Origin: Gammaproteobacteria bacterium
GTDB taxonomy: Bacteria; Pseudomonadota; Gammaproteobacteria; SZUA-152
Direction: 5' to 3'
DNA length: 42,864 nt
Assembly (NCBI GenBank): GCA_022627515.1
Contig: JAKEGK010000066.1
Location: forward strand, 1 to 42,864
Position numbers and translations under genes: made by a program. The notes below the pieces were generated by a model, which ran no database searches, was not told the DNA's origin, and worked only from the letters and a program-made list of their open reading frames with translations. How positions within the stretch are numbered: the stretch's first letter is position 1; every line of letters starts with the position of its first letter. Shown one piece after another: positions 13,783 to 31,302 of the stretch.

Positions 13783-14241
13783 CTAACTGTGTTGGGCCGC
13801 CTTGCATTGGTCAATAAACTGCTGCGGAGACAAATTCTGGCTGGTGCGAATCCGTGTCACCTTATCCGCGTTGGCATTGATCAGCAGAAATACCGGATAT
13901 CCGGTTACTCCATAATTATCGGCGATTTCCCGTTCTTTTGAACCGGATTCAGGATTAATCTTTACCGGGATGACGTTTTCCAGATATTGATCAAATTCCG
14001 GTGTCGCCAGCACGTTTTCCCTTAATCTCTTGCAACTGGCGCACCAGTCGGTGTGAAAAAACACTACAACAGGCTTATGGGTGGTTTTCTGCAATGCCAG
14101 CGCGCTCTGGTAACCTTTGGCGCCGCTATGCCAATGATTGAGTGACGTGTTCACGGTGAATTGGGTGAGTTGGAAAGCCATCAACGCGGCTGCGGCAATT
14201 ATCACCGCAAATGTTATTAAAGCCCGGCGCTTGAGTAATTC
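13783..14241 (-). CDS. Membrane-anchored thioredoxin-fold protein
   Basis: A 152-residue protein with one N-terminal membrane helix (about residues 6-25) and a periplasmic thioredoxin domain. The active site is DWCASCKRL, and the cis-proline is in GYPVFLL. The sequence around the site (VVVFFHTDWCASCK) is like the C-terminal domain of DsbD and the thioredoxin_7 group, so a reductant or chaperone role for envelope thiols is likely. AGG lies 7 bases before the chosen ATG. An upstream ATG at 14274 adds 11 residues and has no ribosome site. It is the first gene of a three-gene leftward operon with the zinc-ribbon and formyltransferase genes. Confidence 0.85.
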   Translation of the reverse strand, partial: ELLKRRALITFAVIIAAAALMAFQLTQFTVNTSLNHWHSGAKGYQSALALQKTTHKPVVVFFHTDWCASCKRLRENVLATPEFDQYLENVIPVKINPESGSKEREIADNYGVTGYPVFLLINANADKVTRIRTSQNLSPQQFIDQCKAAQHS

Positions 14242-14475
14242 CATAACGAACCTGAAAGTTATGTACGTGTGCACATGTTAGTGGATGTGATCCGCGATGT
14301 GAATAAAGTTAATTTATGGCCGGCCACAAAGCTCTCAATTCTATCGTACGAAGTGTGGGATATTAGGTAACAAACTGAATTCAAAACATTTACAGACGGG
14401 CGCAATTTGCTCAAGTTCCTTTTGGAGCAGACGATACAAAAATTGAGGCGCGCAACGCCTTGCAATGACGGTTAG

Positions 14476-14603
14476 GAGTTCTGTCAAAGGCAAGCTTACC
14501 GAAAGGTAAGACACGCAAAGTAACCGGTCTAAGGGGAAATTCCCTATGACAGCGGAACTACCGGAACTCAACTCAAGCAAGAAGCGCAGTATGGATCTTG
14601 CTT
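14476..14603 (+). ncRNA. Cyclic-di-GMP-I (GEMM) riboswitch
   Basis: The aptamer signature is present: a hairpin CTTACC-GAAA-GGTAAG with the GNRA tetraloop, then GACACGCAAAG, the ACCGGTCTAA strand, and ATGACAGCGG closing the second arm. The closing stem can form two ways. AGTTC (14477-14481) pairs with GAACT at 14555-14559, or the longer GAGTTC (14476-14481) pairs with GAACTC at 14564-14569, which may be the switching choice. Directly after it, AAGCAAGA (14575-14582) pairs perfectly with TCTTGCTT (14596-14603), a likely expression-platform hairpin. The next gene, 100 bases on, is a small pilin-like protein, which fits regulation by c-di-GMP. Confidence 0.85.
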
Positions 14604-14702
14604 TGACATTCCTCGATGTTTGCCTGCAAAACAATCTGAGGCTATGCTCCTGACTTGTTAAAACGGCAGTAATGTTTTATCGAGTGCATTAAAGGAGCTG
14701 GT

Positions 14703-15026
14703 ATGCAATCAGGTTCCTCTGATTTATTCAAATTAAATTCCGTGTCATCCGTGCGGCATTCCGGCCTTGGTGCTATCGAATGGCTGATTGCTGTAATGTT
14801 TATTATTACCTTGCTGATCAGTTCAGGCGTATTTTTCAAGGTATCCAACGCGGCTGACAATCGCATACAGGCTCAGGTATCAAAGCCGGAAAAAACGAAA
14901 TCAGTCGCGCTGGGAACTATTGGCGCCATGAACAGCAATATGAAGAAGGTAAAAGCTGATTCCGAATTGCTGTTAAAGAAACTGGCAAAAAACATGGATG
15001 GCGCTTCATGCGAGCTGATACCCTGA
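14703..15026 (+). CDS. Small Flp/type IV pilin-like protein under riboswitch control
   Basis: A 107-residue protein with a 21-residue hydrophilic leader ending in Gly, followed by LGAIEWLIAVMFIITLL. Glutamate falls at position +5 of the mature chain (Glu26), as in prepilin-peptidase substrates, and AIEW then a hydrophobic helix resembles the AIEY of Flp-type pilins. The mature chain would be only 86 residues, with a Lys-rich body and the tail DGASCELIP. AAGGAG lies 5 bases before the ATG. No pilus assembly or prepilin peptidase gene is near, so it must borrow machinery encoded elsewhere. The c-di-GMP riboswitch upstream supports a role in surface attachment. A plain single-helix membrane protein is the alternative. 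Confidence 0.72.
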   Translation: MQSGSSDLFKLNSVSSVRHSGLGAIEWLIAVMFIITLLISSGVFFKVSNAADNRIQAQVSKPEKTKSVALGTIGAMNSNMKKVKADSELLLKKLAKNMDGASCELIP

Positions 15027-15355
15027 ATCAGCAGGCTGTGAACTGGCTAACAAACAATAATCCGGATCTTTACTATATTAAATAACAAAGAGGAGGCTTT
15101 TATAGCGTAGTCCGTTAGGTTTATAAAGCATTTTTTGTACATAAGAAAGCGACTTTTGTTGCTTTGAAATTAAGTTGAAGAAAAGCGGTATTGTTTTTAA
15201 AAGCGAATGTTGAAAGAAGCATTTTTTTAAAGAAGTCATTGTTAAGCTGATAAACGCTTAAACTACAATTTGGTTTTGTTCATAGTGAATTATTCCTTGC
15301 TATCAATATTAAGTTGATAGTTTCTGACAAAGTAAACTATTGCAGGTAAACCTGC
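15027..15355 (+). other. AT-rich noncoding stretch, possible long 3' UTR or small RNA
   Basis: No open frame of note. It contains an AGGAGG-like sequence near 15091 with no start codon after it, and several T and A runs. Two hairpins share bases and cannot form together: CTATCAA (15300-15306) with TTGATAG (15314-15320), and ATAGTTT (15317-15323) with AAACTAT (15334-15340). The terminator at 15356 follows. It may be the 3' UTR of the pilin-like gene or a separate small RNA. Confidence 0.45.
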
Positions 15356-15390
15356 CCCGCCTGGTGTCACCGCCAGGCGGGTTTAATCAT
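15356..15390 (+). terminator. Intrinsic terminator, rightward
   Basis: CCCGCCTGG (15356-15364) and CCAGGCGGG (15373-15381) form a perfect nine-pair stem around TGTCACCG, followed by TTTAAT. It ends transcription from the pilin-like gene or from a small RNA between 15027 and here. Confidence 0.8.
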
Positions 15391-15646: not shown

Positions 15647-16066
15647 TTACTTCACAACGCTGTCGATCAACTGTATTGCCATTATTTCCTGCTCGCTATA
15701 AATTGATTTTGTCTCTTCGAATACTGTGCCGTAATGCGGCAGAAACAACAGTTGCTTAATGTCCTTATGGTGCTGGGTAACGGCTTCCGGCTTTACTTTT
15801 GACAAGGCTTGCAGTGTTGCGGCGTAATCATATCCCGCCTCGTGAAACACCTGTTCCACAAACCGCCGCCTTGCCTCCGGCTTGAGTTGCACGGGGCTGG
15901 TCGGAATTGACTTTGACGCGGTATCATAAGCGGCCGCGAGCTTTTCCAGAGCGTTTTTATCGCCCAAGGGTGCGGCTGAATTCCGGGTTTGCTTTGACGT
16001 TTCGCAAGCCGTGAGGTTAAATATGCACGCTGAGATTAACATAATAATAAGCAATGTTTTTTGCAT
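15647..16066 (-). CDS. Small predicted lipoprotein, unknown function
   Basis: A 139-residue protein with a lipoprotein signal peptide (MQKTLLIIMLISACIFN) and the lipobox LTAC, with the acylated cysteine at residue 21. The mature part has a low-complexity linker and then a helical region of about 90 residues with PEARRRFVEQVFHEAGYDYAA. I know no family for it. AAGGA lies about 9 bases before the ATG, so the start is firm. It is divergent from zapE, 132 bases away, and stands alone. Confidence 0.75.
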   Translation of the reverse strand: MQKTLLIIMLISACIFNLTACETSKQTRNSAAPLGDKNALEKLAAAYDTASKSIPTSPVQLKPEARRRFVEQVFHEAGYDYAATLQALSKVKPEAVTQHHKDIKQLLFLPHYGTVFEETKSIYSEQEIMAIQLIDSVVK

Positions 16067-29892: not shown

Positions 29893-30978
29893 CTAGTCAA
29901 TACAGGATTTGCCAAACCGCACAAAGGGTGGTTTGACAATTTTAGCTTTTAATTTCTTGTTGCGAATTTCGACTTCGCATTCGCCGCTTGTTTGTGCGGG
30001 CACGCGCGCAAAGGCGATGGAGCGGTTGAGCGTCGGCGAAAAACTGCCGCTGGTGGTTTCGCCCTCGCCGCCGTTGTGAACGATGACTTTTTGATGACTG
30101 CGCAAAACGCCGCGATCCAGTAACACGAGCCCCACCAGTTTGCGTGGCACACCGGCTTCGTGTTGTTGTTCCAGCGCCGGGCGGCCGATAAACTGGCGCG
30201 CGGCGGGTTGCCAGGCAATCGTCCATGCAAGTCCGGATTCCAGCGGTGTGGTGGTTTCGTCCATATCCTGCCCATAAAGATTCATTCCGGCTTCGAGACG
30301 CAGCGTATCGCGCGCGCCAAGCCCTATGGGTTTGACGCCGGCCTCCAGAAGTTTGTCCCACAGCTCCGGCGCCTTACCGGCCGGAAGTATGATTTCATAA
30401 CCGTCCTCACCCGTGTAACCGGTCCGGGCGATAAAGAGGTCTTCGCATTGCGCCGCAAAAAAAGGCTCGAGTTCATGTGCCGCGCCGATTTTGCCGCCTA
30501 GTACCTGATGGACGTTGCCGCGCGCGGCCGGACCCTGGACGGCCAGCATCGCCAGGTCAGCGCGCTCGGTAATTTCTATGTTAAAAGACGCCGCTTGCTG
30601 ATTAATCCAAGCGAGGTCTTTTTCACGGGTTGCGGCGTTGACAACCATGCGGTACCAGGTTTCGTTCATGTAATAGGTGATCAGGTCATCGATAATGCCG
30701 CCTTGTTCGTTGAGCATGCAGCTATAAAGCGCTTTACCGGGAATGGTTAGTTTGCCGACATCGTTGGCCAGTAACCGCTGCAAAAATGCGCGTGTCGCTT
30801 CGCCTTTGAAATCGATGACCGTCATATGGGATACATCGAACACTCCGGCGTGATTTCGCACCGTGTGGTGTTCTTCGATTTGAGATCCATAGTGAATAGG
30901 CATGTCCCAGCCGGCGAAGTCGACCATTTTGCCGCCGGCAGCGATGTGTTTTTCGTAAAGGGCAGTGCGTTGTGCCAT
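29893..30978 (-). CDS. gcvT: Aminomethyltransferase (glycine cleavage T protein)
   Basis: Releases ammonia from the aminomethyl-lipoyl arm of GcvH and forms methylenetetrahydrofolate. The 361 residues match the family (E. coli 364), with [20 protein letters not shown], the folate-site aspartate region GVFDVSHM, and [14 protein letters not shown] lies 7 bases before the ATG. It is the first gene of the operon and lies directly downstream of the riboswitch terminator. The methylenetetrahydrofolate it makes feeds thyA, and its onward reduction would serve metH, both in this window. Confidence 0.98.
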
Positions 30979-31045: not shown

Positions 31046-31093
31046 AAAAAAGGGCGGTAGAATTCGATTCATGAAAAAGGAATTCTACCGCCC
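31046..31093 (-). terminator. Strong terminator in the gcv leader
   Basis: GGGCGGTAGAATTC and GAATTCTACCGCCC (31080-31093 and 31052-31065) form a perfect 14-pair stem. On the transcribed strand it is followed by six Ts (31046-31051). It begins one base after the closing stem of the second glycine aptamer and precedes gcvT by about 70 bases, so it is the expected expression platform: without glycine, transcription should stop here. Confidence 0.88.
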
Positions 31094-31302
31094 CTCTGTC
31101 CTCGGTAACCTGAGAGTTAAGCGTGGCGGTGATCTTAAGACTTGTTTGCTACATGCTTAAGATGCCAACACGCTGCCCCTTCGGTGGATCACATTACCAT
31201 TGAGGGTAAATGATCGCTCTCCAGAGTCAACTATTGTCCGTGGTTCTTTTGCCTGAGCGATTCCGGGCTTGTTGCGCCTTCGGCGGCGGCTTTTTGCTGA
31301 AC
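31094..31302 (-). ncRNA. Tandem glycine riboswitch
   Basis: Two glycine aptamers in series lead the gcv operon. The first (about 31302-31235) has GCCGCCGAAGGCGCAAC and CTCAGGCAAAAGAACC, closed by GTTC with GAAC. The second (31226-31094) has CTCTGGAGAGCG, CACCGAAGGGGCAGCG and AACTCTCAGGTTACCGAGGAC, closed by CTCTG with CAGAG. These are the conserved cores of the glycine riboswitch class, which usually turns gcv genes on when glycine is plentiful. The terminator that follows fits that mode. Confidence 0.93.

Follow-up and report, generated by a model that had tools for sequence, protein, structure and literature searches.

A cyclic-di-GMP riboswitch in the leader of a pilin-like gene

The window analysed here, the whole stretch of 42,864 nucleotides of contig JAKEGK010000066.1 from a gammaproteobacterium of the SZUA-152 lineage (GenBank assembly GCA_022627515.1), carries a class I riboswitch for cyclic-di-GMP (c-di-GMP) upstream of a small orphan ORF with a prepilin-like N-terminus. 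Our best explanation of this arrangement, to which we give an even chance of being right as a whole, is that the riboswitch belongs to a transcript made, probably, from a sigma28-type promoter and exerts translational OFF control upon an orphan protein resembling type IV pilins. If this is true, one leader joins the motility programme, via sigma28, and c-di-GMP on one gene, and the motile-to-sessile decision becomes testable on a single transcript; it would also suggest that c-di-GMP can repress a pilin-like gene, against the usual expectation. The parts of this explanation that the sequence itself establishes are the aptamer, the leader common to other genomes, the synteny of the locus, the complementarities within the leader and the presence of fliA and pilD genes. 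All coordinates below refer to the window and to its forward strand, unless the reverse strand is mentioned.

The aptamer and its closing stem

The aptamer (14479–14565) was recognized by cmscan as a full-length match to the covariance model RF01051 (c-di-GMP-I, GEMM-I), with 69.5 bits versus a gathering score of 35 and E 9.8e-12. This bears out the sequence-only reading, an earlier model-made annotation that had named a GEMM aptamer within 14476–15026, and we regard as certain that the element is a genuine c-di-GMP-I riboswitch, the sole one detected in the 4.4-Mb source genome. It would be expected to bind c-di-GMP. Its segment AAAGGC matches the Rfam consensus, the G20 numbering of Vc2 being carried over by eye; in Vc2, G20 favours c-di-GMP over cGAMP, while the G20A variant binds cGAMP (PMC6274999). 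A riboswitch of another kind, for glycine (RF00504, 39.9 bits), lies at 31086–31234 on the reverse strand, upstream of an ORF (29893–30978, reverse strand) that by eye resembles a GcvT-like aminomethyltransferase.

The closing stem P1 is formed by GAGUUCUG (14476–14483) and CGGAACUC (14562–14569), which give 8 pairs, one of them G-U. The perfect 8-pair hairpin previously reported 3' of the aptamer is also present, with AAGCAAGA (14575–14582) facing UCUUGCUU (14596–14603). As a candidate intrinsic terminator, this predicted hairpin (14575–14603) was rejected: It has no T-run 3' of the stem and was not flagged by a scan of the window, which found no terminator-like site 3' of the aptamer.

A candidate sigma28 promoter upstream of the aptamer

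A candidate promoter of sigma28 (FliA) type, TCAAGTTC-N11-GACGATAC, was found by pattern match at 14411–14437 with canonical spacing, the standard of comparison being TAAAGTTT-N11-GCCGATAA together with the presence of FliA. Both elements are found here, a consensus-like site upstream of the aptamer and FliA in the genome. The candidate scores 21; of upstream regions that were shuffled, 0.24% score as high. The source genome contains 33 copies of TNAAG...GNCGATA with the canonical spacing, versus 15, 8, and 7 with the three shorter ones, and some canonical copies stand before csrA, a gene for a response regulator, and a further pilin-like gene. The last of these (L094, G000:C71 in the source genome; GLSIVEIVMTLVVLAILAATAIPG) lies 121 bases 3' of its sigma28-type site.

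Two FliA genes of the source genome score above the NCBIfam cut-off, one of which adjoins a gene for a MinD/FleN-like ATPase and genes resembling cheY and cheA. FliA and chemotaxis genes are thus present, but flagellin was not found in the source genome, perhaps because of a gap in the assembly; this negative result counts against our explanation. Judging from site and genome content, the leader transcript is probably made by the sigma28 (FliA) RNA polymerase.

A shared leader with exchanged cargo

The locus is flanked by a divergent thioredoxin-like gene (13783–14274, reverse strand; PF13899, E 1.7e-14) and by a lipoprotein-like gene (15647–16066, reverse strand) for which no Pfam family was found. 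Counterparts of both, traced by tblastn for the second, occur in G007, a relative of the same family, and in G002, so marking the orthologous locus. Among named sources, uncultured gammaproteobacterial MAGs hold the closest relatives of the flanking gene. G007 has a GEMM between the same two genes, its cargo (L067) being an outer-membrane protein of the PagP family (PF07017, E 6.7e-15) and its leader carrying a sigma28-like site, whereas these genes adjoin each other in G002, where no GEMM was found. Outside the family, the GEMM-pagP leader of G355 (L180) starts with the same GGTTAGGAGTTCTG and has the same 14-base 5' strand, with a sigma54-like site in place of the sigma28-like one. Among the surveyed loci, this 5' motif is confined to the window, G007, and G355.

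In evolutionary terms, the simplest reading of these sequences is one leader lineage in which the cargo has been swapped: The leader would be common to GEMM-pagP genes, with the pilin-like ORF as its cargo in the window. If true, this would suggest that a riboswitch leader can persist while the gene it controls is replaced.

The predicted translational switch

The sequence-only reading had noted that the closing stem can pair at two sites, 14555 or 14564, and had seen in this the mechanism of switching. The alternative pairing does exist in the window, as AGUUC (14477–14481) with GAACU (14555–14559), giving 5 pairs, but it is not conserved, for the 14555 site reads GGGUU and GGACU in the two related leaders, those of G007 and G355; a switch between the two closing stems was consequently rejected. 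Better supported is an exchange between P1, an anti-P1 pairing, and an anti-Shine–Dalgarno pairing. The 5' switching strand GGUUAGGAGU (14470–14479) can pair with GCUCCUGACU (14646–14655), an element predicted by constrained folding to act as both anti-P1 and anti-Shine–Dalgarno; its bases 14646–14651 can pair also with the Shine–Dalgarno AGGAGC (14693–14698). The complementarity of the P1 5' strand to a downstream element is kept in all three leaders (GCUCCUGACU in the window, GCUCCUAACC in G007, and ACUCCUGGCC in G355), as is the CUCCU within that element, which in each case can pair also with the Shine–Dalgarno, if less well in G007.

When 81 leaders are ranked by their anti-P1 complementarity, the three that carry the motif take positions 1, 2, and 5. 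Taken alone, the complementarity of the window is only moderately unusual, being matched by 5% and 2.7% of shuffles, and across the 81 leaders 2 have p ≤0.03 versus 2.4 expected, which equals chance. Paired cells across the three leaders amount to 95.8% for P1, 96.7% for anti-P1, and 83.3% for anti-Shine–Dalgarno, all above slid versions, in segments hand-picked to fit the model, so that these counts lean towards it. The anti-Shine–Dalgarno pairing has one change on both sides among the three leaders, and three sequences provide almost no covariation. The alignment of whole leaders with MAFFT misplaced the linker.

Constrained folding to position 14712 leaves the Shine–Dalgarno of the window unpaired at 0.08 with P1 versus 0.64 with anti-P1; the corresponding values for the G007 leader (G007a) are 0.04 and 0.38–0.39. 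When the fold is lengthened by a further 18 to 38 coding bases, the Shine–Dalgarno of the window is predicted to be paired in both states. From the constrained-folding values and the complementarity in three leaders we predict, with moderate confidence, a translational switch that c-di-GMP turns OFF, its direction being deduced from these folds. At low c-di-GMP, the 5' strand of P1 (14470–14479) would pair with the CUCCU element (14646–14655), leaving the Shine–Dalgarno more accessible; binding of c-di-GMP would let P1 form with 14562–14569 and free the CUCCU element, which would then pair with the Shine–Dalgarno (14693–14698) and lower translation. C-di-GMP is the bacterial "settle down" signal, and the pilin-like protein would be made mainly in motile cells with low c-di-GMP.

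The OFF control predicted by this model opposes the direction implied in the sequence-only reading, in which c-di-GMP would promote attachment. We consider such an ON switch, with read-through or an opened ribosome site raising the level of the pilin-like protein, rather unlikely. There is precedent for it in Clostridioides difficile, where a class II c-di-GMP riboswitch switches on the pilin PilA1 (PMC6200980), and a further argument comes from G010, a genome of the same family as the window, in which a terminator-like hairpin followed by a T-run shares bases with the 3' strand of the aptamer. This overlap would give ON control, and the GEMM of G010 seems to act as such a switch by antitermination; hence, the direction of control may differ within this genome family. 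However, the window aptamer is followed by no terminator-like site, and P1 formation hides the Shine–Dalgarno in the folds ending at 14712. The OFF switch is the reading that we retain for the window.

The pilin-like ORF

The ORF of 107 codons (14703–15026) has GGAG 5 bases 5' of its ATG and encodes a 21-residue leader ending in HSG followed by LGAIEWLIAVMFIITLLISSGVFF, which places Gly at –1 and a Glu residue at +5; cleavage is predicted before Leu22 (G^LGAIE, HSG^LGAIEW). A leader ending in Gly, a hydrophobic helix, and Glu at +5 are all found in HSG^LGAIEWLIAVMFIITLLISS, in agreement with the prepilin-type cleavage site described earlier, which we also read in the translation together with the hydrophobic stretch after it. 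Only 2 of the 152 window ORFs with at least 60 residues fit a loose prepilin motif, and this ORF is the more hydrophobic of the two. Its coding score of 0.185 bits per codon, where genes average 0.34 and shadow ORFs 0.0 (maximum 0.3), is supportive, not decisive.

Searches with the protein gave no match to Pfam, NCBIfam, or PHROG profiles at E up to 1, and it is not among the PF07963 (N_methyl) matches of the source genome, having no match to N_methyl or any other pilin family. No relatives of the ORF were found in 57 related genomes, GTDB contigs, viral contigs, phages, or plasmids, and PDB sequences returned chance matches only. Having no homologue in the collections searched, the ORF may be non-functional or not a pilin, and its identity and function as a pilin are putative, being deduced from the features of its N-terminus.

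This raises the question of whether a functional riboswitch could precede a gene in decay, or an ORF present by chance, once pagP, as the original cargo, had been lost. The lack of homologues in every collection searched would fit such a history, as would the merely moderate coding score, the approximately 600 bases that separate the ORF from the next gene, and the finding that in G007 and G355 this leader stands before pagP. Conversely, the ORF combines a good Shine–Dalgarno and ATG with a well-formed prepilin-like N-terminus, its coding score exceeds that of most shadow ORFs, and the window contains no remnant of pagP. On balance we regard a non-functional ORF as unlikely, and continue to treat the ORF as encoding a pilin-like protein.

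Two features of the adjacent sequence may be added. A second frame is open across the end of the ORF (approximately 14990–15089, forward strand) and could encode about 25–30 residues more, ending in NNNPDLYYIK; it may represent an overlapping or shifted reading frame. Further downstream, a G+C-rich inverted repeat, CCCGCCTGG/CCAGGCGGG, forms a 9-pair hairpin followed by TTTAATC (15356–15381), a possible transcript end that was not flagged by the terminator scan.

Pilus machinery and the Flp question

No pilus machinery had been noticed near the ORF, and indeed we saw none among the surrounding ORFs (8–22 kb); the machinery sits on other contigs. The source genome does have a prepilin peptidase (PF01478, 101.6 bits), the gene of which, pilD, adjoins those of PilC and PilB, as well as 25 N_methyl matches and a cluster resembling GspD/E/F of type II secretion systems (T2SS), as read by eye. 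Its 7 ATPases of T2SSE type were read as PilB, GspE, or PilT/PilU, none of the seven being TadA; a profile re-check of selected proteins of the genome omitted GspE (L072) and the pilin of C71. Hence, of the Tad or type IV system that was to be looked for, the type IV side is represented by PilB-PilC-PilD, the T2SS, and PilT-type ATPases, whereas no ATPase of TadA type was found. With the covariance-model hit and this peptidase, neither of the two outcomes that would have refuted the sequence-only reading was observed. PilD would process the pilin-like protein for the machinery of a type IVa pilus or of the T2SS.

The protein had previously been called an Flp-like pilin. AIEY is the motif of Flp pilins, and the AIEW of the window protein, with AIE followed by an aromatic residue, resembles it; "Flp-like" can be taken as a resemblance only and does not hold in the Tad sense. 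That the protein belongs to the Flp/Tad type is a disfavoured reading which we consider very improbable, since PF04964 (Flp_Fap) fails on the protein itself and has no match above cut-off anywhere in the source genome, in addition to the ATPases just described. Given the latter two results, we prefer the term orphan pilin-like protein to Flp pilin.

Sigma sites across gammaproteobacterial GEMM-I loci

We surveyed 98 GEMM-I aptamers from Gammaproteobacteria, some of which share one genome, using promoter scores with weights that were chosen from the consensus, unfitted, and a simple rule for picking the cargo ORF, which may be wrong for some loci. Sigma28 sites scoring at least 21 lie upstream of 11 of the 98 aptamers and are absent from the reverse strand of the same regions, the number expected being 0.16 from other locus windows and 0.43 from intergenic-like windows. 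Sigma54-like sites scoring at least 15.5 number 7 upstream of GEMM-I and 0 on the reverse strand, with 1.6 expected; perfect ones precede two pagP genes, the GEMM-pagP loci of sigma54 type being L225, L202, and L180. Of three cargo proteins of sigma28-GEMM loci that were either searched with Pfam or judged by eye to be response regulators, two have a PilZ domain.

These data could reflect a recurrent class of gammaproteobacterial c-di-GMP-I riboswitches transcribed from flagellar-type promoters, with sigma28 and in some cases sigma54, which would constitute a two-input gate with interchangeable cargo; we put this forward tentatively, at slightly less than an even chance. If true, expression would need both the motility programme and a given level of c-di-GMP, for cargo as diverse as pilin-like, PagP, and response-regulator-PilZ proteins, and the excess of sigma28 sites upstream of GEMM-I would point to a regulatory theme that is general among Gammaproteobacteria. 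In the open-access literature, where wording varies, none of the papers listed for GEMM riboswitches dealt with pagP, and none was found that joins the c-di-GMP-I riboswitch with sigma 54.

Several loci of the survey can be recorded separately. Those preceded by sigma28 sites include L214, L226, L229, and L210, with response-regulator-PilZ proteins among the cargo. Outer-membrane proteins of the PagP family recur as GEMM-I cargo in L067 (1070–1624), L180, L202, and L225. In several genomes (L003, L008, L201, and L228), a pair recurs downstream of GEMM-I, made up of a small lipoprotein-like ORF and of a protein carrying the motif KF(I/V)Y(V/A)Y...LL/VTP.

Comparison with known systems

With respect to the c-di-GMP-I class defined by RF01051, the window aptamer is full length and well above the gathering score; it is distinguished by an expression platform that looks translational, with predicted OFF control, and by the sigma28-type site upstream. 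The GEMM-pagP leaders of G007 (L067) and G355 (L180) share with the window the 5' switching strand and the anti-P1/anti-Shine–Dalgarno layout, while their cargo is PagP (PF07017) instead of a pilin-like ORF, and only that of G007 occupies the same genomic place. The merRNA of Bdellovibrio bacteriovorus, a c-di-GMP riboswitch RNA expressed in a motile phase in which most promoters are of FliA type, offers a similar combination of riboswitch and promoter setting; however, it has no conserved ORF downstream and has been proposed to store c-di-GMP (PMC3627812), whereas a gene follows in the window. Control of a pilin gene by a c-di-GMP riboswitch has a known precedent in C. difficile, where the leader of the type IV pilin gene pilA1 contains the class II riboswitch Cdi-2-4, which turns the gene on (PMC6200980). 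The likeness lies in the position of a c-di-GMP riboswitch in the leader of such a gene, and the differences are as follows: class II, transcriptional ON control, and a major pilin in C. difficile, versus class I, predicted translational OFF control, and an orphan pilin-like ORF in the window.
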